64,000 nucleotides of DNA from an uncultured Alphaproteobacteria bacterium (lineage in GTDB: Bacteria; Pseudomonadota; Alphaproteobacteria; SP197): positions 62,001 to 126,000 of the forward strand of contig CALSLK010000010.1 of the NCBI GenBank assembly GCA_943787175.1, read 5' to 3'. A program made the position numbers and the translations under genes. Positions 8,399 to 20,629 of the stretch are shown one piece after another. Positions within the stretch are counted from its first letter, which is position 1; each line of letters starts with the position of its first letter. The notes under the pieces were generated by a model, which was not told where the DNA came from, made no database searches, and was given only the letters and a program-made list of their open reading frames with translations.

Positions 8399-9331
8399 TC
8401 ATGCCGCCAAGAACCTGTTTATCACATCTTGCTGCTGCTGTTGTTGAGCCTGTGGAGATGTGGTCAAGGCGATAGCCTTGTCCATCATATCCATGGGCCG
8501 CCCGTTTCCGAAGGCCTCGGCGGGCGTTTGGCCGTCGTGGACCGAATGTGGCCTCTCAGTATTGTAAAAATTGACCCAATCGCCGATGACCTGTTCGGCC
8601 TTGAACCCATCCGTCAGCTCGTGCAGATAGACCGCCTCGTATTTGAGAGAGCGCCACAGCCGCTCGATGAAGATGTTGTCCATGCAGCGGCCCCGGCCAT
8701 CCATGGAGATCGTAACCTCTGCCGCCTTGAGCAAACCGGTGAAGTCAAAGCTGGTGAACTGGCTGCCCTGGTCGGTGTTGAAGATCTCCGGTTTTCCATA
8801 TCGGGCTAGCGCCTCGTTTAACGCCTCAAGGCAGAACCAGACATCCATGGTGTTCGACAATCGCCAGGCGAGTACATGACGCGTGGCCCAGTCCATGATC
8901 GCAACCAGGTACAAAAAGCCGCGCTGAACGGGGATATACGTGATGTCGGCACACCAGACTTGATTGGGCCGGTCGATGACCATTCCCTTGAGAAGATAGG
9001 GATAAATCCGGTGCGCCGGATGGGGTGTACTGGTCTTTGGCGCTTGATAGATCGCCTCCAGCCCCATGAGGTGCATCAGACGACGGACCCGGTGACGCCC
9101 CACGCAAATGCCCTCGCGCCGCAACTGGCGCACCATCTGACGGGAACCGTAAAACGGATACTTCAGAAACAGCTCGTCGATGCGACGCATCAACGCCAGG
9201 TTCTCCACGCTTTCGCCCTTCGACCTGTAATAGAACGACGAACGGCTGATCGCCAGAACTTGGCACTGTTGGCTCAAACTCAGGTCGGGGTGATCGCGTC
9301 TGATCATCGCCTTGCGATTCCCCCGGCTCAT
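8399..9331 (-). CDS. IS3-family transposase OrfB (DDE integrase domain)
   Basis: 310 residues. An N-terminal HTH-like region (YPFYGSRQMVRQLRREG) is followed by an rve integrase core with the catalytic triad in ADITY, NTDQGSQF and FIERLWRSLKYE. A Gln-rich run (AQQQQQQ) lies near the C-terminus. Its ATG overlaps the TGA of orfA (ATGA at 9328-9331). A -1 shift at the heptamer in orfA would enter this frame and yield the OrfAB transposase that cuts and joins ends in this family. Confidence 0.93.
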   Translation of the reverse strand: MSRGNRKAMIRRDHPDLSLSQQCQVLAISRSSFYYRSKGESVENLALMRRIDELFLKYPFYGSRQMVRQLRREGICVGRHRVRRLMHLMGLEAIYQAPKTSTPHPAHRIYPYLLKGMVIDRPNQVWCADITYIPVQRGFLYLVAIMDWATRHVLAWRLSNTMDVWFCLEALNEALARYGKPEIFNTDQGSQFTSFDFTGLLKAAEVTISMDGRGRCMDNIFIERLWRSLKYEAVYLHELTDGFKAEQVIGDWVNFYNTERPHSVHDGQTPAEAFGNGRPMDMMDKAIALTTSPQAQQQQQQDVINRFLAA

Positions 9332-9624
9332 CGTTTGAGCCCTTTGGCCAAAAAATCCCGCTCCACCGTCAACTGACCGATCTTGGCATGGAGATCGTGG
9401 ACCTCATCATCGTGCTCCAGCCGACCTTTGTCGGCGCCATTCGAAAACACCGCACCCAAACCGTCCATCGCCTGGCGCTTCCATGTGCTCACCTGGTTCG
9501 GGTGCACCTTGTGCCTGGTCGCTATCTCCTGGATCGTCTTATCGCCACGCAGCGCATCAAGCGCAACTCGAGCCTTGAAATCTGCTGTAAACCGTCGTCG
9601 GGGCGTCATTTCGTATTCCTCCAT
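9328..9624 (-). CDS. IS3-family transposase OrfA (HTH)
   Basis: 98 residues. Helix-turn-helix DNA-binding protein with the family opening R-R-F-T-A-D-F-K-A-R-V-A-L and the HPNQVSTWKRQA recognition segment. A leucine-zipper-like C-terminus (LHAKIGQLTVERDFLAKGL) serves multimerisation in this family. It binds the terminal repeats and is the N-terminal part of the OrfAB fusion made by frameshifting. Confidence 0.92.
   Translation of the reverse strand: MEEYEMTPRRRFTADFKARVALDALRGDKTIQEIATRHKVHPNQVSTWKRQAMDGLGAVFSNGADKGRLEHDDEVHDLHAKIGQLTVERDFLAKGLKR
9349..9355 (-). other. Programmed -1 frameshift heptamer in IS orfA
   Basis: On the coding strand the orfA codons GAT TTT TTG contain the slippery heptamer T TTT TTG. 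After a -1 slip the frame reads GGC CAA AGG GCT CAA ACG ATG and runs straight into orfB. This matches the known recoding mechanism of IS3-family elements; slippage itself is inferred. Confidence 0.75.
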
Positions 9625-9780: not shown

Positions 9781-11412
9781 ATGATGGACCCGGAGCTTCG
9801 ATGTTTCGCGGTTGCGGTGCCGAATATGGGCAAACACAAAGCACACAACCTGTCTCTTAAGCGCCTGCTGCTGCCAACTGTGCTTGTCCTGTTGGTTGCG
9901 TGCCTGGCGCTGGCTGTCGTATTTTTTCAGGCCGTGCGTCAGCTTGACAGTACTTCGCGGCAAGCATCCGCAAAGGCGATTGAGGCCATTGTGGACCATG
10001 AAACGGCGCGCCTGTCCGTTCTGGCCTATGACTATTCCTGGTGGGATCAGGCTGTGATTTCGCTTGTTTCGAACCCTGACCCGGAATGGGCTCAGGACAA
10101 CATCGGAAGTTATCTGGCTGAAACCTTCGATCTCACCGTCAGCTTCGTTATCGGCCCGGAAGAGACGACGATGTTTGCATTTCTTGATGGCCAACCTTCC
10201 GACCTCGACGCCTACAGCGTGATTGGCCCGGCTGTTACGCTCTTGGCTACAAAGGCCCGTGCCGCACCCACAGATGAGCCTGCACCCGTTTCGGCCTTCG
10301 TAGCGTCTGGTGAGGAACTGCTCTTGATTTCGGCCAGCGCGATCACTTCTGAACAGGTGATGGAGGCTGATGACGACACCATGCCGCGTGGTGTTTTGAT
10401 GTTGGGCATGCTGTTTCCCAATGAACACATTGAGCATTTTGCCGAAATTGCTGGCGCCGCAGATATTTCCTTGCAGCCGGTCGCGCCTTCCAGTGACCGG
10501 CTGGCAATTCCGTTGATCGGGTTGGATGGTGAGGCTCTGGCTTATCTGACATGGACTGTCGAAGCACCAGGAGCAGCGCTTCTGGACAACACTATTGTTC
10601 CGATCGTCGTCGCTCTGCTGGCTGCCTTGGTTCTCATACTCATTGCGTTCCGCAACGCGGCTGCAGTCCTTGGACATGAAGGCCGCATGCATAAACTCCT
10701 ACAGGCGGAGCAGGAGTTTGCAGAACTGCAAAGTCGCTTCATCGCCATGTCATCCCACAAACTGCGCACGCCACTTTCGGTCATCCAGGCGGCTGCGGAA
10801 CTGATCTCCGGCTACAGGGACCGTATGTCCAGTCAGGACGTTACACGTGAGGCTGATGCAATCATCCGATCCGTCGGTGAACTTGATGCCATGATTGAGG
10901 CGACAACCAAGCTCGAACGAAATCACCTTGATACGGATACTGTGCCGTCGCGGAACATTTGCATTGAGGAGCTGGTCGCAGATATCTGGAATCAAAGAGA
11001 AGATTCACCGGCTTTGGAAATGACTGGTAGTGCTTGGGTTCATGGCGATGAGCGCCACTTGCGAACAGTACTGACCAGTATCCTCGAAAATGCGTCGAAA
11101 TTCGGGGTCGGCGAAAGGCCGGTAGAGGTATTGATCAAGTCGGACGGTGAGGTTGTCATGGTTCGCGTGAAAGATCATGGCATTGGAATTGCATCTCTGG
11201 ATCTGGAACGGCTCGGCATTCCGTTCGTCCGTGGTTCCAACGCAGAAGCATTCCCGGGGAATGGAATTGGACTTGCCGTGGCCAAACATATCTTGAACTG
11301 GATGGGGGGCTCTTTGCATATCGAGAGCGAACTCCATGAAGGAACGACCGTGACTGTCAGATTGCCTGTTGGGAATGAAGCACCGATGACTGGCGGCGAG
11401 GAGCAGCAATGA
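9781..11412 (+). CDS. CHASE4-domain sensor histidine kinase
   Basis: 543 residues as given; an ATG at 9826 (MGKHKAHN) would remove 15 residues. Membrane helix 1 (about 27-47) leads to a periplasmic CHASE4 sensor with its typical DYSWWDQAV segment. Helix 2 (about 275-297) is followed by HisKA and HATPase_c domains (N-box ENASKF, G1 KDHGIGI, G2 GNGIGLAVA). The phospho-acceptor is His326 in SSHKLRTPL. The residue after it, almost always Glu or Asp, is Lys (codon AAA at 10759). The gene overlaps the next regulator by 4 bp (ATGA), so they form a cognate pair. An IS ends about 105 bp upstream and may have altered its promoter. Confidence 0.88.
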   Translation: MMDPELRCFAVAVPNMGKHKAHNLSLKRLLLPTVLVLLVACLALAVVFFQAVRQLDSTSRQASAKAIEAIVDHETARLSVLAYDYSWWDQAVISLVSNPDPEWAQDNIGSYLAETFDLTVSFVIGPEETTMFAFLDGQPSDLDAYSVIGPAVTLLATKARAAPTDEPAPVSAFVASGEELLLISASAITSEQVMEADDDTMPRGVLMLGMLFPNEHIEHFAEIAGAADISLQPVAPSSDRLAIPLIGLDGEALAYLTWTVEAPGAALLDNTIVPIVVALLAALVLILIAFRNAAAVLGHEGRMHKLLQAEQEFAELQSRFIAMSSHKLRTPLSVIQAAAELISGYRDRMSSQDVTREADAIIRSVGELDAMIEATTKLERNHLDTDTVPSRNICIEELVADIWNQREDSPALEMTGSAWVHGDERHLRTVLTSILENASKFGVGERPVEVLIKSDGEVVMVRVKDHGIGIASLDLERLGIPFVRGSNAEAFPGNGIGLAVAKHILNWMGGSLHIESELHEGTTVTVRLPVGNEAPMTGGEEQQ

Positions 11413-12155
11413 TGGATCCCGCAACGAGAACTGTGCTGGTGGTCGAGGACGAAGGAGAAATCCGAGATCGAGTCATGCGTATTCTTGATTTTGAGGGTTA
11501 CGCTAAGTTGGGCGCAGAATCGATCCGCGACGGGCTTCGCATATGTCAGGAGGAAGAACCTGACGTGGTGATCAGTGATATCCTCATGCCGCACGGCGAC
11601 GGGCTTGACCTGATCAGCGTGCTCCGAGCGCGCAAGAAGTCCCGATTGACACCGGTGATCATGCTGACTGCATTGACCCAGCGTGAATGGCAACGACGTT
11701 TTATGGAGTTGGGCGCCGACGACTACATCACCAAGCCGTTTTCCGCCGACGAAATTGTTGGGGCGGTTCAAAGCCAGTGCAGAAAGCTGGATTGGCAGGT
11801 TGCAGCTGCAGTACCTGAACCCAGTCAGGTTGTGGCATACAAGTTTGAAGGTCGCCTGTTCGATCCCGTCCGACGCACGGTTCAACTGTCGTCGGGCGAG
11901 GAGGAAACCCTGACGGTTACCGAAGCGCGGTTGCTTCTGGCGCTCTTGACCAATGCGCAACGGAGTCTCAGCAGGGATGCCATCTTCGAGCACATGGGCC
12001 GCCAATACTCGCCGCTGGACCGAACCGTGGATGTTCTTGTTGGGCGTCTGCGCCGCAAGATCGGTGATGATGAGAAATCTCCCCGTTTGGTGGTGACCAT
12101 CAGAAGCGTTGGATACATGCTCGATGCTGAGGTTCTGCGCGTGATGCTCAATTAG
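11409..12155 (+). CDS. OmpR/PhoB-family response regulator
   Basis: 248 residues: receiver domain (1-125) with acidic pocket E13-D14, phospho-acceptor Asp57 (VISDILMP), conserved Thr in MLTALT and Lys in ITKPF, then a winged-helix DNA-binding domain (LTVTEARLLLALL ... VDVLVGRLRRKIGDD ... RSVGYMLDAE). Translationally coupled to the CHASE4 kinase (ATGA overlap), so it is probably its direct partner. Strikingly similar to the next regulator, including the shared segment WQRRFMELGADD, which indicates a local duplication. Target genes unknown. Confidence 0.92.
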   Translation: MMDPATRTVLVVEDEGEIRDRVMRILDFEGYAKLGAESIRDGLRICQEEEPDVVISDILMPHGDGLDLISVLRARKKSRLTPVIMLTALTQREWQRRFMELGADDYITKPFSADEIVGAVQSQCRKLDWQVAAAVPEPSQVVAYKFEGRLFDPVRRTVQLSSGEEETLTVTEARLLLALLTNAQRSLSRDAIFEHMGRQYSPLDRTVDVLVGRLRRKIGDDEKSPRLVVTIRSVGYMLDAEVLRVMLN

Positions 12156-12358
12156 GCACGACAGATGACTCCCTGGACTTGTCCGGCGTCCAGATGATGG
12201 GCGCACAGGAACAACTGCCGATCGCAGTGCTCCGCTGACTTTGCGAACCAATTGGATCAACGGGAGTTCTGTTGCATGGTTGCAGCCGGGAAGAACAGGC
12301 ATGCCGTTGTCTGGGAACAAATAGATTATTGTTTGTGTGCAAAGGGAAGCTGACCGGG

Positions 12359-13087
12359 ATGTCGACAGTGCGACGAATTCTGGTGGTCGAGGATGAAGAA
12401 TCCGTCCGCCAACGTATGGCGCGTATTCTGCAGTTCGAAGGCTATGAGGTCGACGCGGCACAGGATGTCGGCGAGGCAATACGCCATCTCGAGCAGCTGC
12501 CGCCAGATGTGATTTTATGCGACATCATGATGCCCAAGGGCGATGGCGTGGATCTGGTCAGTCTGGTGCGCTCGCGGGCCCTGACGCGTTTGATTCCCAT
12601 TGTCATGGTGACGGCGCTGACCGAACGTCGATGGCAGCGCAGGTTCATGGAGCTGGGTGCGGACGATTTCCTCACCAAACCCTTCCGAGCCGAGGAACTT
12701 ATCGCCGCGGTCGAAACCCAATGCGCAAAGCTCTCCTGGCATGAGCAGGCCATGGAGAATGCCTCGCCTGCACGGACACGCAGGTTTGCCGGCCGGAGCT
12801 TTGAACCGGTTCAGCGTGCTCTGAAGGTGGCGGGCCAGGAAGATGCGACACTGACCACCAAGGAAGCCCAGCTGCTGACCATTCTACTGGATCATTCCGG
12901 AGAGAATCTCTCTCGCGAGAGCATCATGGTGGCCATGGGGCGTGAATATGATCCCTTGGATCGCGGCATCGATATCCTGATCGGGAGGCTGCGCAAGCTG
13001 ATTGGTGATGACACCCGCAACCCCAGTGTCGTTTGCACTGTGCGCGGACAAGGTTACCGACTGAATGCGGAAGTCAGAATGGAATAG
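12359..13087 (+). CDS. OmpR/PhoB-family response regulator (paralogue of the preceding gene)
   Basis: 242 residues from the ATG at 12359. The frame is open to 12272 but the receiver domain begins immediately after 12359. Receiver with E11-D12, phospho-acceptor Asp55 (LCDIMMP), MVTALT and LTKPF; winged helix with LTTKEAQLLTILL and IDILIGRLRKLIGDD. It follows the first regulator after a 203-bp gap with its own leader, so it may be expressed separately. No second kinase is adjacent, so both regulators may share the CHASE4 kinase or this one answers a distant kinase. A GC-rich hairpin follows. Confidence 0.92.
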   Translation: MSTVRRILVVEDEESVRQRMARILQFEGYEVDAAQDVGEAIRHLEQLPPDVILCDIMMPKGDGVDLVSLVRSRALTRLIPIVMVTALTERRWQRRFMELGADDFLTKPFRAEELIAAVETQCAKLSWHEQAMENASPARTRRFAGRSFEPVQRALKVAGQEDATLTTKEAQLLTILLDHSGENLSRESIMVAMGREYDPLDRGIDILIGRLRKLIGDDTRNPSVVCTVRGQGYRLNAEVRME

Positions 13088-13097
13088 CGGATAAACA

Positions 13098-13134
13098 AAG
13101 CCCCGACCGGCGTTGAGGCGCCCGGGCGGGGCTT
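13098..13134 (+). terminator. Probable intrinsic terminator after the regulator gene
   Basis: AAGCCCCG (13098-13105) pairs with CGGGGCTT (13127-13134) around a GC-rich loop, 11 bases after the regulator stop. No clear T-run follows, so termination strength is uncertain. Confidence 0.55.
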
Positions 13135-13322: not shown

Positions 13323-14831
13323 ATGTCCCGTGTTGCCCTTGGTGCCAGTGCCTTAGGAATTGCCGATGTCGCCGTTGTTGCGCGTGGCAAGGCGCAAGCT
13401 GAACTGGCGCCGCAAGCGCGCGAGGCCATGCAGCGTTCACGTGACGTGGTCGAACGCTTTACGGCTGAGGACCGGCCGGTCTATGGCCTGACCCGCGGCC
13501 TTGGCGGCCGGGTCGTCCATGAAATCAGCCAGGCCGAACGTGAGGATTACAGCCGGGTCACGGTTCTGGCCCGTGCCTGTGGTGCGGGTGATCCGCTTCC
13601 GGTCGATGCCGTGCGGGCTGCCATGTTCGCGCGTGCCAGCAGCATGGCCCAGGGTGGTGCAGGTGTGCGCCCGCTCATTGTCGATACCTTTTGCGCCATG
13701 CTGGATGCAGGTGTGCATCCCTATATTCCCTCCATCGGCTCGGTTGGCGCGTCTGATCTTGCCTTGTGCGCCAACATGGCCTTGCCCCTGATGGGTGAGG
13801 GGCGGGCGCATTATCAGGGTGCGTGGATAGATGGTGCGCAAGCCATGAAGAAGGCGGGGATTGAAATCGCCGCGCCGCAGGAAAAGGAAGGCCTGGCGCT
13901 CTGTTCAGCCAACTCCATTTCCGTTGGCGTGGGTGCCCTGGCGCTTGCCGATGTTACCGAACTGCTGGAATTGATGGACGGCATCGCTGTGCTGACCTTC
14001 GAAGCCTTTCGTGCCAATCCCAGTCCCATCGATCCGCGCGTCGTGATGGCGCGCGGCGCACCGGGTCAGGCACGCGCGGCACAGAGCCTGCGTGAGAAAC
14101 TCGCCGGTACGGCGCTCTTCGAACCTGGCCAGGCGCGCCGTGTTCAGGATCCCATCAGCCTGCGTTGTGCCAGCCACGTGCATGGCAGCTTGCGCGCGAC
14201 CATCGACTTCTGCAGGCCAAATGTTGAGGTCGAGTTGAACGGAGCGGGTGACAATCCGGTCGTTCTGGCCGATCACGACGAAATCCTCTCCAACGGGAAC
14301 TTCCATACGCCGGCCATGGCGATTGCCTTTGACGCTCTGGTTCTGGCGATCAGCCAGGTGGGAGAAATGGCCGCCCAACGTGTCGGGCGTTTGATGCAGA
14401 ACCAGTACACCGACCTTCCCAACGGGCTCACCAGTCATGGTCACACCCAGATCGGATTTGGTATTCTCAACATGACGTCGGAAACCCTGGTGAAGGAAAT
14501 CCGCATTCTGGGCATGCCTGCCAGCCTGCATGATGGTTCGGCCTATAACGTCGAAGACCATGCGCCGATGACCCCGCTTGCCGTGCGCAAGGCCGCATCT
14601 TCTATCGATCTGCTACGCCAGGTCGCGGCCTGCGAGCTTATCGCCGCCGCCCAGGCCTTTGATCTGCGTGCGCCGGCAAAGAGTGCTCCAATTGCGCGTG
14701 CCTTGCGCGATGCCGTGCGTGAGACGGTCGCCCCGCTTGATGGCGATCGCAGTATGACCCATGAACTTGTAGCGGTTGCAGATCGCGTTCGCGCGGGCGA
14801 CTTTCTGGCTTGTCTCGACGCAAGGGACTGA
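13323..14831 (+). CDS. HAL/PAL-family aromatic amino acid lyase-like protein, noncanonical MIO triad
   Basis: 502 residues, usual length for the family. In known members an Ala-Ser-Gly triad cyclises to the MIO electrophile that removes ammonia from His, Phe or Tyr. Here the conserved block reads GSVGASDLAL, so the triad is Ala143-Ser144-Asp145; relative to GSVGASGDL one glycine is missing. Other landmarks are present: Tyr54 (YGLTRGLGG), NPVV, NFH (326-328) and NVEDH. The usual YSLRC tyrosine is Ile278 (PISLRC) and PQVHG is SHVHG. AGGAG precedes the ATG. An oxygenase gene follows 35 bp later, probably in one operon. Fold certain; substrate and MIO formation uncertain. Confidence 0.85.
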   Translation: MSRVALGASALGIADVAVVARGKAQAELAPQAREAMQRSRDVVERFTAEDRPVYGLTRGLGGRVVHEISQAEREDYSRVTVLARACGAGDPLPVDAVRAAMFARASSMAQGGAGVRPLIVDTFCAMLDAGVHPYIPSIGSVGASDLALCANMALPLMGEGRAHYQGAWIDGAQAMKKAGIEIAAPQEKEGLALCSANSISVGVGALALADVTELLELMDGIAVLTFEAFRANPSPIDPRVVMARGAPGQARAAQSLREKLAGTALFEPGQARRVQDPISLRCASHVHGSLRATIDFCRPNVEVELNGAGDNPVVLADHDEILSNGNFHTPAMAIAFDALVLAISQVGEMAAQRVGRLMQNQYTDLPNGLTSHGHTQIGFGILNMTSETLVKEIRILGMPASLHDGSAYNVEDHAPMTPLAVRKAASSIDLLRQVAACELIAAAQAFDLRAPAKSAPIARALRDAVRETVAPLDGDRSMTHELVAVADRVRAGDFLACLDARD

Positions 14832-14866
14832 AGGTCTAGACTGAGACTTCTGCAGAGGAGATCCCG

Positions 14867-15847
14867 ATGACGGTGACGGCTGGCGAGATTCCCGTTCTTG
14901 ATCTGGGCCCGTGGCTGGCGGGAGAAAACGGCGCGCTTGATCGTCTGGCTGCCGATCTGCGCCGTGCCTGCATCGACGTCGGATTCTACTTTATCGCCAA
15001 CCACGGCGTTGATCAGGATCTGGTCGACCGCACGTTCGATCAGACCGCAGCCCTGCATGCCCTGCCTGAGGATGTGAAGACCGCCTACCGGATCAACAAA
15101 CACAACATCGGCTTCATGGCCTCGAAAGCCAGCATGCAGCGTTCTTCGGCCGTGCATGACGCGACCAAACCCAATCTGGTGGCGTCCTATTTCATGAAGC
15201 GTGATCGAGCACCAGATGATCCCGCTGTCGTGGAAAACCTGCCATTGCGCGGCATGAACCAGTGGCCCGCTGAACTGCCGGAATTCCGGCCCGTCATGCT
15301 CGCCTACATGAACGCCATGGAAACCCTGGGAAAGCGGATGTTGCCGGTTTATGCGCGGTCTCTGGACCTTCCGGTGGACTATTTCGCATCGTCGTTTCGC
15401 GAGCCCAGCATCACGTTGCGCATCTCGCACTATCCGACCCAGGACAGCTTCGATGGAGAGGAGTTTGGAACCGGGCCCCACACCGATGCCGGGTTCATGA
15501 CCATGCTGGCTCAGGCAGAAGTGCGCGGCCTAGAAATCCTTACACGCGACGGAGAATGGAAATCAGCACCGGTTCTGCCCGGCGCCTTTCTGGTCAATAT
15601 CGGCCAGATGCTGACGCGCTGGACCAACGATGTCTTTCCATCAACACCACATCGCGTGGTCAACCTTGCGGGACGGGAACGATTCTCGATTCCATTTTTC
15701 TTTGATCCTGATTTCGAGGCTGTGGTGTCGTGCCTGCCGACCTGCTCAGATGCCGACAACCCACCCAGGCACGCGCCGATCCGTTATCTCGATCACATCC
15801 TTGCGTTCACCAACAAGAATTTTGATCACCGTGGCAAGGCGGCCTGA
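14867..15847 (+). CDS. Isopenicillin N synthase-like 2OG-Fe(II) oxygenase
   Basis: 326 residues. N-terminal DIOX_N-type region (IPVLDLGPWL; CIDVGFYFIANHGV) and C-terminal 2OG-FeII_Oxy core. Iron ligands are His205 and Asp207 (GPHTDAG) and His262 (STPHRVVN); the 2-oxoglutarate-binding R-x-S is Arg272/Ser274. Members hydroxylate, desaturate or form ethylene-type products; the substrate cannot be read here. GAGGAGA lies just before the ATG. Same strand and close behind the lyase, so the two may act in sequence on one amino-acid-derived compound. The 3' end overlaps the convergent GNAT gene by 22 bp. Confidence 0.9.
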   Translation: MTVTAGEIPVLDLGPWLAGENGALDRLAADLRRACIDVGFYFIANHGVDQDLVDRTFDQTAALHALPEDVKTAYRINKHNIGFMASKASMQRSSAVHDATKPNLVASYFMKRDRAPDDPAVVENLPLRGMNQWPAELPEFRPVMLAYMNAMETLGKRMLPVYARSLDLPVDYFASSFREPSITLRISHYPTQDSFDGEEFGTGPHTDAGFMTMLAQAEVRGLEILTRDGEWKSAPVLPGAFLVNIGQMLTRWTNDVFPSTPHRVVNLAGRERFSIPFFFDPDFEAVVSCLPTCSDADNPPRHAPIRYLDHILAFTNKNFDHRGKAA

Positions 15848-16410
15848 CTGGTGATCTCGGCTCGCTTCTGCCGCCATGCATCGCGACCGACGACATAGAC
15901 GACCTGGCGGCCCTGATAGGCGGTGATATCACGCTCATGAATCATGCCAAGCCGGTCCATCAGATGCCGCGAGGCATGGTTGTCGGGGCTCGTCACGGCC
16001 GAGATTTTTGCGCTCCCCAGTTGGTCGAAGGTGTGATCGAACAGCGCCGCTGTTGCTTCAAGCGCAATGCCCTTGCCCGTATTGCCAGAAGCCATGGCCC
16101 ATCCGGCTTCGATCTCTTTGGCGACGTCGATCTCCTCATCTATGTCGATCACGAATCCGGTGTAACCCAGAAGAAGGCCGGCTGGTGTCGCGCGGTCCAA
16201 AATCGCCCACATGCCGCCACCATATCGATCGAAGGCCCACAAGGACCTCTCCAGGTAGAATGAGGCAAGTGTTGCTGGATCGTTGGAGCGGCCGGGGATA
16301 TCCATCAGGTCCCACATGTGATCGTGGTCTGCGAAGATTGCGGTCAGCGCCGCGAGATCGCCATGTTCCAGTGGTCTCAATAGCAGCCGTTCTGATTGAA
16401 GGATCGTCAT
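15826..16410 (-). CDS. GNAT family N-acetyltransferase (RimJ/RimL-like)
   Basis: 194 residues from the ATG at 16410 (MTILQSERLLLRPLEHGD). The opening S-E-R-L-L-L-R-P-L is typical of the RimJ/RimL subgroup, which acetylates protein N-termini or small molecules with acetyl-CoA. Motif A is degenerate (SGNTGKGIALEAT in place of the usual Q/RxxGxA); the C-terminal NHASRHLMDRLGM motif is clear. Convergent with the oxygenase gene, overlapping 22 bp, and divergent from the alpha/beta hydrolase gene whose ATG lies 43 bp away. Substrate unknown. Confidence 0.88.
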   Translation of the reverse strand: MTILQSERLLLRPLEHGDLAALTAIFADHDHMWDLMDIPGRSNDPATLASFYLERSLWAFDRYGGGMWAILDRATPAGLLLGYTGFVIDIDEEIDVAKEIEAGWAMASGNTGKGIALEATAALFDHTFDQLGSAKISAVTSPDNHASRHLMDRLGMIHERDITAYQGRQVVYVVGRDAWRQKRAEITSQAALPR

Positions 16411-16452
16411 GCACACACCCATTCTGACTGTGACAATCTGGAGCGCACTGCC

Positions 16453-17580
16453 ATGAAGCGCAATCTGGCGCGCGCATTTCTGGGTGTGTTGATTGTTGTG
16501 TTGTTGCTGGCGGCAACAGCCGGCGTACTTTGGCATCGTTATGGTGAAGCAGTCACCACACTGCATGCCCTGCTGGAAGCGCCTGCGGGGATTGTGCCCG
16601 AAGGTGTCGAACGCCTCGATCTCACGATGATCGACGGTGACACCACACGCAAAGCCTATATCTATGATCCTGTTGCCGGTGCACGCGCGGTTCTTCTTCT
16701 GGTGCCCGGCCTAACGCCTGCCGGGCGCGAAGATGCACGGGTCACGGCCGTCGCCGGTGCTTTGGCGCAGGCGGGATTCAGAACCGTGGTGCCGGACCTG
16801 CCCGGTGCAAAACGCCTGCGTGCCGACGCCGATGATGCCGGCGTCATCGCCCTGTTGTTCAGCCGGTTTGCTCTGGATGCACAACGCGAAGATCTGCCTT
16901 TGGTGGTTGTGGCAATTTCCTATGGTCAGGGCCCGGCGCTGGTCGCGTTGGCCGAACCGGCACGGGCTGTCTTGCTGGATCGGTATGTCGGCCTGGGCGG
17001 TTACTTCGACGCAACCTCTGTTCTGGCGTTTGCAACAACAGGGGTTGCCGGGTCGGGGGCTGATGCAAGGTTGGGTATGCCCGACCCGCGTGCGCGCTGG
17101 ATCGTGCTCAAGGCCAATGCCGATCTTGCCACCCTGGCGTCAGATCGTGTCGCGCTGGACCGGCTTGCTGACCAGGGTCTTTGGGGACAATCGCCTTCCA
17201 TGGCTGACATCGCGGTAACGATGGCGGGCCTGCAGCCCGATGCACAGGCGCTTTTGACCTTTGTTGCCAACGTCCAGCCCGAACGGGTCGATACCCTGCT
17301 TGAGGCGCTGGAGCCGGACCTGCGTGCATCCGTGGAGGGCCTGTCGCCCTCCCGCCATGACCTCACGGCACTGGAAGGCAAACTCCTGCTGGTTCATGGC
17401 GATATCGACCCCATCGTTCCTGTCGAGGAGACTTTCGCCCTGGCTGAGGCGGTATCGGGTACGACGGTCAGGATCGTGCCGGGCTTTTCTCATATCGAGC
17501 CGGAATCGACCGGAATTGCCGGCCAGATCGCCATGATCCGTGCTGTCAGGGAACTTCTCGATACCCGCGCCTTGCCCTGA
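16453..17580 (+). CDS. Membrane-anchored alpha/beta hydrolase
   Basis: 375 residues from the ATG at 16453 (MKRNLARAF). An N-terminal hydrophobic anchor (8-27) is followed by an alpha/beta hydrolase domain. Candidate triad: Ser in AISYGQG, where the usual G-x-S-x-G starts with Ala; Asp in HGDIDPIVPVE; and His in GFSHIEPES. Oxyanion-side segment LLLVPGLTPAG. Substrate unknown; an esterase or peptidase acting outside the cytoplasm is plausible. A hairpin with five T residues follows. Confidence 0.82.
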   Translation: MKRNLARAFLGVLIVVLLLAATAGVLWHRYGEAVTTLHALLEAPAGIVPEGVERLDLTMIDGDTTRKAYIYDPVAGARAVLLLVPGLTPAGREDARVTAVAGALAQAGFRTVVPDLPGAKRLRADADDAGVIALLFSRFALDAQREDLPLVVVAISYGQGPALVALAEPARAVLLDRYVGLGGYFDATSVLAFATTGVAGSGADARLGMPDPRARWIVLKANADLATLASDRVALDRLADQGLWGQSPSMADIAVTMAGLQPDAQALLTFVANVQPERVDTLLEALEPDLRASVEGLSPSRHDLTALEGKLLLVHGDIDPIVPVEETFALAEAVSGTTVRIVPGFSHIEPESTGIAGQIAMIRAVRELLDTRALP

Positions 17581-17629: not shown

Positions 17630-18517
17630 ATGCCCAAGACAACACCTTCCATGCCCCCCCTGATTGAGGGCCTTTCCGCCATTGCGGACAATTATGACGG
17701 CCTGCTGGTTGATCTGTGGGGTTGTCTTCACAACGGCATGGAGGCTTATCGCGATGCGGTGGATGCGCTGCAGCGGTTCCGTGCGCGTGGCGGTCGGGTA
17801 ACGCTGTTGTCGAACGCGCCGCGCCGGGAAGATGCCGTGGCTTCCCAGATTGCCGGTTTTGGTGTGCCCGAAGATGCCTGGGATGCGATCATGACGGCGG
17901 GGATCGCTGTCCGGCTGGAAATGGAAGAGCGCGGTGATCCCTGGTTCGCGGACCTGGGGCGGAACTTTTACCATATCGGCACAGACAAGGACGCCGGCCT
18001 CCTGGATGGTCTGGGCTATGAGCGCACCGGCATGGATGACGCCGACTTTGTCCTGTGCTGCGGTATTCGTCATGGTGAGGAAGTGCTCGAAGATGTTGTT
18101 CCTGAACTCAATGCCGCCTTGGCACGCAACCTGCCGCTGGTTTCCGCCAACCCCGACCGTTTCGTTTTGCGCGGGCCAAAGCGCCAGATCTGTGCCGGGA
18201 GTATGGCGCTTGCCTATCGCGAGATGGGCGGTGACGTGCGTCAGGAAGGCAAACCGTTCCCGGCTGTCTACCGGCGCTGTCAGTCCCTGATGGCCGGCAT
18301 CGATCCCAGCCGCATTCTGGCGATCGGTGACGGCATCGAAACCGATATCGTCGGTGGTCGTGATAACGGTATCGACACGCTCTGGATCACCGGCGGCCTG
18401 CCGGCCAGCTTCTGGGATGTTCCGCCACACGAAGCCCCTCCGCAGGAGCGCGTGCTCGCGGCATGTCGTGAGCACGATGTGACACCCTCTGCTATTCTGC
18501 CACTGCTCCGCTGGTAA
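17630..18517 (+). CDS. HAD-superfamily class IIA hydrolase (TIGR01459/NagD-like)
   Basis: 295 residues. Class IIA HAD phosphatase: motif I is LLVDLWGCLHNG, where the nucleophile Asp is kept and the second Asp of DxD is Trp, as in the TIGR01459 group. Motif II is LLSNAPRR, the Lys is in GKPFPAVY and motif III is IGDGIETDIVGGRDNG. A cap domain lies between motifs II and III. Family members act on small phosphorylated metabolites. It lies 18 bp before the molybdopterin oxidoreductase gene on the same strand, so co-transcription is likely, although no functional link is evident. Confidence 0.87.
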   Translation: MPKTTPSMPPLIEGLSAIADNYDGLLVDLWGCLHNGMEAYRDAVDALQRFRARGGRVTLLSNAPRREDAVASQIAGFGVPEDAWDAIMTAGIAVRLEMEERGDPWFADLGRNFYHIGTDKDAGLLDGLGYERTGMDDADFVLCCGIRHGEEVLEDVVPELNAALARNLPLVSANPDRFVLRGPKRQICAGSMALAYREMGGDVRQEGKPFPAVYRRCQSLMAGIDPSRILAIGDGIETDIVGGRDNGIDTLWITGGLPASFWDVPPHEAPPQERVLAACREHDVTPSAILPLLRW

Positions 18518-18535: not shown

Positions 18536-20629
18536 ATGGATGACGCCGCAACAAACCCGACCTTTGGCTACAGTGTCTGTCCACACGATTGCCCATCGAC
18601 CTGCGCTCTGGAGGTCGAGGTTCTGGGTCCCGACCGGATCGGGCGGGTGCGTGGCGCCAAAGACAACTCCTACACCGCTGGCGTGATCTGCGCCAAGGTC
18701 GCGCGTTATGCCGAGCGTATCCACCATCCCGACCGCCTGACCCAGCCCCTGCGCCGCACCGGCCCCAAGGGCTCAGGCCAGTTTGCGCCGATCTCCTGGG
18801 ATGAAGCGCTCGATGAGGTTGCCGCGCGTTTTCAGGAGGCCGAAGACCGCTTCGGGCCTGAGACCGTATGGCCTTATTACTACGCGGGCACGATGGGTTT
18901 CGTGATGCGCGACGGCATCAACCGTCTGCGCCACGTCAAAGGCTACAGCGGCCAACACAGCACGATCTGCACGACGCTGGCATGGACCGGTTTCATGGCT
19001 GGAACCGGAGCGTTGATGGGCCCGGACCCGCGCGAGATGGCAAAGTCCGATTGCGTCGTGATCTGGGGCACCAACCCGGTCAACACGCAGGTCAACGTCA
19101 TGACCCACGCCATCCGCGCCCGCAAGGAACGCGGTGCGAAGATTGTGGTGATTGATACCTACCGCACCGGCACGGCCGAACAGGCTGACCTGTTCCTGTG
19201 TGTGCGTCCGGGCACCGATGCGGCGCTGGCTTGCGGCGTCATGCATGTGCTGTTTCGTGACGGCTTTGCCGACCACGAATGGATGGCCGTCAACACAGAC
19301 GATCCCCAAGCGCTGGAACATCACCTCAAGGACAAGACGCCAGCCTGGGCTGAATCTGTTTGTGGTGTTCCTGCTGACGAGATCGAGGCGTTCGCGCATC
19401 TGATTGGTGAAACGCCGCGCACCTATCTGCGCCTGGGTTACGGCTTCTGCCGCGGCCGCAACGGCGCGATGTCGATGCATGCCGCGTCCTGTATCTCGTC
19501 TGTCACCGGTTCCTGGCGTCACGAGGGCGGCGGATCGTTTCACAACAACGGTGCAATCTACCATTGGGATCGCACGGTGCTCGAAGGCCTCGACAAACGA
19601 GACCCAAACGTAAGGGTTCTCGACCAGTCACGCATCGGCCCGGTTCTGACCGGTGACAAACACGATCTGGGTGAGGGGCCCCCGGTCACTGCCCTGCTGA
19701 TCCAGAACACCAACCCCATGATGATCGCGCCTGATCTGGGCCTGGTGCACAAGGGCTTTCAACGCAACGACCTGTTTGTCTGCGTCCATGAGCAGTTCAT
19801 GACCGAGACCGCGCAGATGGCCGATATCGTGCTGCCCGCGACCATGTTCCTGGAACATGACGATCTCTATCAGGGCGGTGGACATCAGCACATCCTATGG
19901 GGCCCCAAACTGGTCGATGCCCCCGATGGATGCCGCAGCAACCATGAGGTCATCTGTGAACTGGCCAGGCGTCTGGGTATCGCAGACCAGCACGAGGGTT
20001 TTGCCATGAGCCCAACGGAACTTTGCGATCAGGTGATGCAGGCATCCGGCTGGGGCGATCTTGAAAATCTGATCGAAAAGCACTGGATGGATGTGCAGCC
20101 TGATTTTGAGGCGTCACATTTCATCGACGGATTTGGTCATGCTGACGGGCGCTTCCACTTCCGGGCGGACTGGTCGAGCAGCGCAAACCGCTTTGGTCCC
20201 GAAGGCATGCCCGACGCCATGCCCGGCCTGCCCGACTTCTGGGATGTGATCGACCGCAGCGATGCCGAACGGCCTTACCGCCTGGTGACGGCACCTGCGC
20301 GCAATTATCTGAACTCGAGCTTCACGGAAACACCGACTTCGCAGAAACGCGAAGGGCGCCCGACGGTGCAGATTCACAGTGAAGACGCTGCTGGCGCCGG
20401 CATCGAGGACGGAGCCAAGGTGCGTATTGGCAATGAGAAAGGCAGTGTGCTGCTGCATGCCCAAATTACGCAGGGCCAGCGGCGCGGGACCGTGATTGTC
20501 GAGAGTGTCTGGCCCAACGCTGCATTCGAAGAAGGGATCGGCATCAACCTGCTGGTTTCTGCCGATCCCGGTGCTCCGATTGGCGGAGGCCTGTTTCACG
20601 ACACGGCGGTCTGGCTCAAGTCCACCTGA
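18536..20629 (+). CDS. Molybdopterin-dependent oxidoreductase (DMSO reductase family)
   Basis: 697 residues. N-terminal Molybdop_Fe4S4 motif with Cys15, Cys19, Cys23 and Cys52 (CPHDCPSTC ... GVICAK), then the molybdopterin-binding domain (SWDEALDEVA; VIWGTNPVNT; IVVIDTYRTGTA) and a C-terminal Molydop_binding domain (RNYLNSSFTETPTSQ). No twin-arginine signal, so it is probably cytoplasmic. The size and the motif NTNPMMIAPD fit the assimilatory or formate-dehydrogenase-like branch; the substrate cannot be assigned. No electron-transfer subunit or cofactor-chaperone gene is adjacent. Intact. Confidence 0.9.
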   Translation: MDDAATNPTFGYSVCPHDCPSTCALEVEVLGPDRIGRVRGAKDNSYTAGVICAKVARYAERIHHPDRLTQPLRRTGPKGSGQFAPISWDEALDEVAARFQEAEDRFGPETVWPYYYAGTMGFVMRDGINRLRHVKGYSGQHSTICTTLAWTGFMAGTGALMGPDPREMAKSDCVVIWGTNPVNTQVNVMTHAIRARKERGAKIVVIDTYRTGTAEQADLFLCVRPGTDAALACGVMHVLFRDGFADHEWMAVNTDDPQALEHHLKDKTPAWAESVCGVPADEIEAFAHLIGETPRTYLRLGYGFCRGRNGAMSMHAASCISSVTGSWRHEGGGSFHNNGAIYHWDRTVLEGLDKRDPNVRVLDQSRIGPVLTGDKHDLGEGPPVTALLIQNTNPMMIAPDLGLVHKGFQRNDLFVCVHEQFMTETAQMADIVLPATMFLEHDDLYQGGGHQHILWGPKLVDAPDGCRSNHEVICELARRLGIADQHEGFAMSPTELCDQVMQASGWGDLENLIEKHWMDVQPDFEASHFIDGFGHADGRFHFRADWSSSANRFGPEGMPDAMPGLPDFWDVIDRSDAERPYRLVTAPARNYLNSSFTETPTSQKREGRPTVQIHSEDAAGAGIEDGAKVRIGNEKGSVLLHAQITQGQRRGTVIVESVWPNAAFEEGIGINLLVSADPGAPIGGGLFHDTAVWLKST

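Follow-up and report, generated by a model that had tools for sequence, protein, structure and literature searches.

Ergothionase (ergothioneine trimethylamine-lyase), solved for Treponema denticola, has the aromatic-amino-acid-lyase fold. According to PMC13405746, citing Maurer et al. (2019), ergothionase lacks MIO and releases trimethylamine, and is thus active without the cofactor. Within the open-licence literature, and to the extent of the passages of PMC13405746 covered, no MIO-lacking member of the superfamily besides ergothionase was found described.

The window, i.e., the whole 64-kb stretch of DNA analysed, encodes a protein of this superfamily (502 aa; 13323..14831, + strand) and, downstream of it, a 2OG-Fe(II) oxygenase resembling isopenicillin N synthase (IPNS; 326 aa; 14867..15847, + strand). 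The coordinates, the strand and the 35-bp spacing that the earlier note had given for both genes were exact. Compared with the nearest relative, 93% identical, the lyase had dN 0.034 and dS 0.77 (dN/dS 0.045), and the oxygenase, 91% identical to its nearest relative, had dN 0.049 and dS 0.64 (dN/dS 0.076). Both genes are thus under purifying selection, and are real beyond chance.

The lyase and its shortened loop

The lyase matched the Pfam profile Lyase_aromatic (PF00221) with 458 bits over its whole length (profile positions 1-466 of 466), and its orthologues were 60-93% identical. Fold comparison gave VIA Z of 27-39 to solved lyases among the matches listed, and by whole-domain profile and fold the protein belongs to the PF00221 superfamily. 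The AlphaFold model of the lyase had a pLDDT of 76.6 and was weak exactly at the active-site loops (residues 54-68, 141-143 and 403-414).

The lyase had been called abnormal in the earlier note, and the alignments agreed, as its MIO tripeptide was one residue short. Histidine ammonia-lyase (HAL) has GSVGASGDLAP and the window lyase GSVGASDLAL, one residue fewer; in this degenerate loop (residues 139-146, GSVGASDL; 13737..13760, + strand) the Gly of Ala-Ser-Gly was absent. The loop was shortened in 14/14 aligned rows (the window plus 13 orthologues), the Gly being absent from the window and from every intact orthologue, and was the same in the eight rows with a nearby oxygenase orthologue and in the six without.

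Residue numbers and roles are those of HAL, mapped onto the lyase through alignments to solved lyases. Tyr54, Gln275, Arg281, Asn311, Phe327 and Glu411 were kept in all rows of the window's clade (14/14), and the HAL His83 and Tyr280 positions were occupied by Arg and Ile, respectively (14/14 each). Arg58 was present in 14/14 rows of the clade and in ergothionase, and was replaced by Thr in 20/20 rows with an intact Ala-Ser-Gly (ASG rows). The HAL Tyr280 position was Tyr in 20/20 ASG rows and was never Tyr in the 28 short-loop rows of the tree set (Ile 16, Leu 10, Val 1, Phe 1).

The short loop extended beyond the window's clade to 14 further lyases of other genera, with the sequence GSIGA(A/G/S/D)-DL or similar. 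These relatives (36-48% identity overall, 48% in G085 and 45% in Streptomyces) came from Rhizobium, Martelella, Paracoccus, Azospirillum, Streptomyces, Phyllobacterium and several other alphaproteobacteria. Several were annotated as hutH; judged by the loop, the short-loop genes that carry this name in public records are not histidine ammonia-lyases in the usual way. The loop was one residue short in 28/28 short-loop rows of the tree set and in ergothionase (PDB 6s7j).

The maximum-likelihood tree comprised 55 rows (20 ASG, four Ala-Cys-Gly, two GSVGY, 28 short-loop, and ergothionase) and was unrooted. A 100/97 branch divided the tree into the 28 short-loop rows with ergothionase on one side and the remaining 26 on the other; the position of ergothionase itself is unsure because of its very long branch (2.66). 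The window's clade was joined, with 93/94 support, by the closely related short-loop lyases of L081/L140 and L046; an MttB methyltransferase was encoded at the L081/L140 locus, and an OpuAC binding protein and an ABC ATPase at the L046 locus. On these sequence comparisons, the window lyase is probably a member of a widespread, mostly uncharacterised group that contains ergothionase.

Other departures from the standard loop were present among the lyases collected. Ala-Cys-Gly replaced Ala-Ser-Gly in L087, L089, L091, L103 and L172, and the four of these that were aligned had RDxLSLRC for QDPYSLRC; in L143 and L144 an Ala-Cys-Gly lyase was located a few kb from a second, standard-loop lyase. A separate, second MIO-less lineage (L023, L032) had the loop GSVGY, with a single Tyr for ASGD, and fell outside the short-loop rows in the tree.

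The oxygenase and conservation of the pair

The oxygenase had both domains of IPNS-like 2OG-Fe(II) oxygenases (DIOX_N, PF14226; 2OG-FeII_Oxy, PF03171), the His-x-Asp...His motif and the downstream Arg. The triad by which the earlier note had recognised a canonical enzyme (His205, 15479-15481; Asp207, 15485-15487; His262, 15650-15652; + strand) was indeed invariant in 8/8 aligned rows, and so was Arg272. A good ribosome-binding sequence preceded the gene. The AlphaFold model of the oxygenase had a mean pLDDT of 46, and a plasmid search with the protein gave identities of up to 42% among the matches listed.

Upstream of the pair were a histidine kinase (CHASE4) and two response regulators (9781..13087, + strand; Pfam), with a related response regulator upstream of the lyase in 5/15 regions compared. 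Two frames resembling an IS3-type transposase pair lay between the Tad pilus genes and the kinase (8399-9624, - strand). Of the terminator that the earlier note had placed ahead of the pair, a strong GC-rich hairpin was confirmed upstream of the lyase (13098..13134, + strand; -27 kcal/mol for the 56-base fold containing it), but it had no T-run after it and the terminator scan called none at 13098-13134. Downstream, a GNAT acetyltransferase (PF13302; 15826..16566, - strand) was convergent with the oxygenase, and was followed by an alpha/beta-hydrolase-like protein (16396..17580, + strand; longest ORF, start uncertain), a TIGR01459 HAD-type hydrolase (17630..18517, + strand) and a molybdopterin oxidoreductase (18536..20629, + strand).

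The lyase was present in 14/16 genomes of the family, intact in 13 and broken in G011, where a stop stood in place of Tyr54 and the catalytic loop was missing. An orthologous oxygenase (72-100% identity) was present in 8/16, from three genera, and was beside the lyase in all of them (8/8); none was found away from a lyase among the 16 family genomes. The gap between the two genes was 32-49 bp in six genomes, under 60 bp in G012 (start uncertain) and 1,215 bp in G008. Six of the 14 carriers had the lyase without the oxygenase, five of them with an intact lyase (G001, G003, G006 and G007, from one tree branch, and G002) and one with the broken lyase. A 7.6-kb Kiloniellaceae contig (L044) also had an intact lyase and no oxygenase, and G013, which had no lyase, had a 53% oxygenase homologue.

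The earlier note had read the two genes as a two-gene pathway. Conservation of the pair upheld this in part (8/14 lyase carriers, in one bacterial family), but the two genes were not both kept wherever either occurred: the lyase was without the oxygenase in 6/14 carriers and in L044, which gives no support to a fixed pathway, and with five of the six lyases intact the pathway is not an obligatory one. To judge from one family and from losses of one partner, it is the oxygenase that seems to depend on the lyase, and not vice versa.

Alternatively, the adjacency of lyase and oxygenase may have been inherited with a block of the chromosome, the two serving no pathway in common; this reading is compatible with the chemistry proposed below for the lyase, and its chances are somewhat short of even. 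Gene order was shared beyond the pair, with the downstream hydrolase in the same order in 8/15 regions and the HAD protein and the molybdopterin enzyme in 8/15 and 7/15, respectively, so that adjacency alone is weak evidence for a common pathway. The lyase also persisted without the oxygenase in G002 and in the four sister genomes, and in 27 loci from the rest of the class, with about 1.5 kb covered on each side, homologous oxygenases (42-54% identity) had no adjoining lyase. Block ancestry is opposed by the orthologous oxygenases themselves, 8/8 of which were beside the lyase and 7/8 within 60 bp of it, across three genera.

Neighbourhoods of short-loop relatives and the putative leaving group

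Seventeen short-loop loci from outside the window's family were compared with 39 full-loop controls (38 from the class search, plus Acetoanaerobium L050). The loops were verified, and the loci spanned about 8-9 kb on each side of the lyase, less at contig ends. A PF04069-type betaine ABC binding protein was encoded in 7/17 short-loop loci (not independent, five being from Rhizobium) vs 1/39 controls (Fisher p = 5.5e-4), where the control count could miss remote members because six of these same positives had gone into the profile. By genus, the binding protein occurred in 5/11: Rhizobium (3/5 loci), Martelella, Phyllobacterium, Streptomyces and g222 (1/2 loci). It was absent near the lyase in the Paracoccus, Azospirillum, g91, g162, g109 and g75 loci, and was confirmed with Pfam in L045, L046 and L139.

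One strand of G366 (L139) carried a row of genes for the binding protein, the lyase, two permeases and the ATPase, and in G085 (L140) an MttB gene was divergent from the lyase at a distance of about 350 bp. The Rhizobium loci additionally encoded a CoA-transferase, an SDR and a MaoC dehydratase, which would fit an unsaturated acid activated to CoA. On pAMI4 of Paracoccus aminophilus (L047), a short-loop lyase annotated as hutH was followed by six genes for LLM-class flavin-dependent oxidoreductases, one of them named as NtaA/DmoA family. A neighbour of the lyase in L044 reached 281 bits with the NCBI model of ErtE (ergothioneine breakdown), under the cut-off of 520, and matched allantoate amidohydrolase better; it carries no weight here.

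In the window's own clade, a betaine binding protein was found near the lyase in 0/17 regions (some genomes counted twice, from two sources), and none was encoded within the 64-kb window. MttB was found in 1/17 regions only (L074, G011:C14), where roughly 6 kb separated the broken lyase from an intact MttB gene.

Trimethylamine N-oxide (TMAO) demethylase scored above the NCBI cut-off in 16/16 family genomes. In the class sample it was found in 29/367 genomes, five of them from the family, which leaves 24/362 among the others. It is a trait of the lineage, being present also in G013 and G015, both without the lyase; it shows a means of using trimethylamine, and no link to the lyase gene. Among the matches listed, MttB was matched 10-18 times per family genome and 12 times in the window's own genome. 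An ordinary MIO lyase, a putative HAL, was listed for nine family genomes; in at least six of them (G002:C10, G004:C211, G005:C14, G010:C95, G011:C5 and G014:C176) one or two MttB-family genes were found no more than about 2 kb away, an arrangement suggestive of a route in which histidine betaines are first demethylated and then deaminated. Urocanase had no match in the window's own genome and had one in 15/15 other family genomes, and a second full-length lyase had no match in the own genome either; as this genome is 91.8% complete, both results are suggestive only.

The short loop, the likeness to ergothionase, the betaine-linked neighbourhoods and the TMAO demethylase favour the elimination of a ready-made leaving group, and with a probability of about 0.5 the lyase would release trimethylamine from a betaine. 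Counting against this are the own clade's lack of a nearby betaine binding protein, its single MttB gene beside a broken lyase, the TMAO demethylase of lyase-free genomes, the better sequence scores of HALs, the fifth rank of ergothionase by structure and its long branch, and the dependence among the 17 short-loop loci. In the favoured reading, the lyase would be a catalytically active, MIO-free enzyme of elimination from the ergothionase-containing group, which has retained the fold's residues for acid-base catalysis and carboxylate binding. Having no electrophile to activate ammonia, such an enzyme would most likely act where the substrate brings a good leaving group of its own; this is probably trimethylamine at the alpha-carbon of a betaine. 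The products would be an acrylate-type acid and trimethylamine, which the host could use through TMAO demethylase. The 2OG-Fe(II) oxygenase would be an intact, non-essential companion that, where present, hydroxylates or trims the substrate or the product. Ergothioneine and histidine betaine are candidate substrates, suggested by the Arg58 that the window lyase has in common with ergothionase and opposed by the missing urocanase match in the own genome.

More tentatively, and with the odds rather against it, the short-loop lyases might form a broad, unnamed MIO-free family annotated as HAL, which splits trimethylamine or another pre-formed group from amino-acid betaines, in several genera with OpuC-type uptake, and which is here coupled to a dedicated 2OG oxygenase in a new aerobic route from betaine to trimethylamine. 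If they are betaine lyases, bacteria of soil, root nodules and the sea would have in these enzymes an overlooked source of trimethylamine, and, besides ergothionase, there would be natural variants to show what the lyase fold can achieve without its cofactor.

A MIO-free lyase that removes a different group, or takes substrates of a different class (sulfonium, thiol, phosphonate or hydroxy), is an unlikely reading. In one version, the oxygenase would hydroxylate a quaternary aminophosphonate and the lyase would release the amine, feeding phosphonoacetaldehyde hydrolase. The gene of that hydrolase (TIGR01422, 314 bits, cut-off 220) shared 4 bases with the start of the lyase gene in both L042 and L043, and the LLM-class flavin enzymes of the Paracoccus record are also consistent with a different substrate class. 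The hydrolase gene was only a remnant in the sisters L040 and L041, however, where the lyase was intact, and the own genome had no phosphonoacetaldehyde hydrolase match above the cut-off. The phosphonate (PhnX) link is therefore weak, as the gene decays while the lyase stays.

A catalytically dead pseudoenzyme would agree with the lost cofactor residue and with the G011 orthologue, broken by a stop and without the loop, but is very improbable given the low dN/dS of the lyase, the invariance of its remaining active-site residues and the activity of ergothionase without MIO, as given in PMC13405746.

Scarcely credible is an ordinary ammonia-lyase of the HAL/PAL/TAL type whose arylacrylate product the oxygenase then hydroxylates, as the earlier note had suggested: the whole-length PF00221 match, HAL as best NCBIfam models and the conserved adjacency would fit, but the MIO-forming Gly was absent throughout the clade, the hutH model scored 403.3 bits (TIGR01225, curated cut-off 539.15), His83 and Tyr280 were replaced in 14/14 rows of the clade, and neither urocanase nor a full-length second lyase was matched in the own genome.

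Comparison with solved oxygenases, HutH and ergothionase

The oxygenase resembled IPNS-type oxygenases in its two domains, HxD...H motif and Arg272, and its best solved match was 9ovh, labelled ethylene/succinate-forming enzyme (4.7e-62), followed by 6jyv. Isopenicillin N synthase itself was a distant match (1.3e-18), unlike what identity with that enzyme would call for.

The lyase shared with HutH (1b8f, 1gkm) the fold and most active-site residues, and its best sequence score among solved structures was to HALs (249 bits vs 221 bits for ergothionase). It differed from HutH in the incomplete Ala-Ser-Gly, in having neither His83 nor Tyr280 and in its score below the hutH cut-off.

By structure, ergothionase ranked fifth (Z 35.5 vs 38.8). 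The window lyase was unlike it in overall sequence (26% identity in the structural alignment), in having Arg instead of His at the HAL-83 position, and in a host genome without a urocanase match for a urocanate-type product. Both proteins had the aromatic-amino-acid-lyase fold, no MIO tripeptide and a loop one residue short, and SIGEGDI of ergothionase aligned without gaps to SIGASDL of the Streptomyces relative, i.e., the loops were of the same length. At the HAL-280 position ergothionase had Leu, and the window lyase was likewise without Tyr. Arg in the YGxxRG motif and Asn at the HAL-195 position were common to ergothionase and the window lyase.
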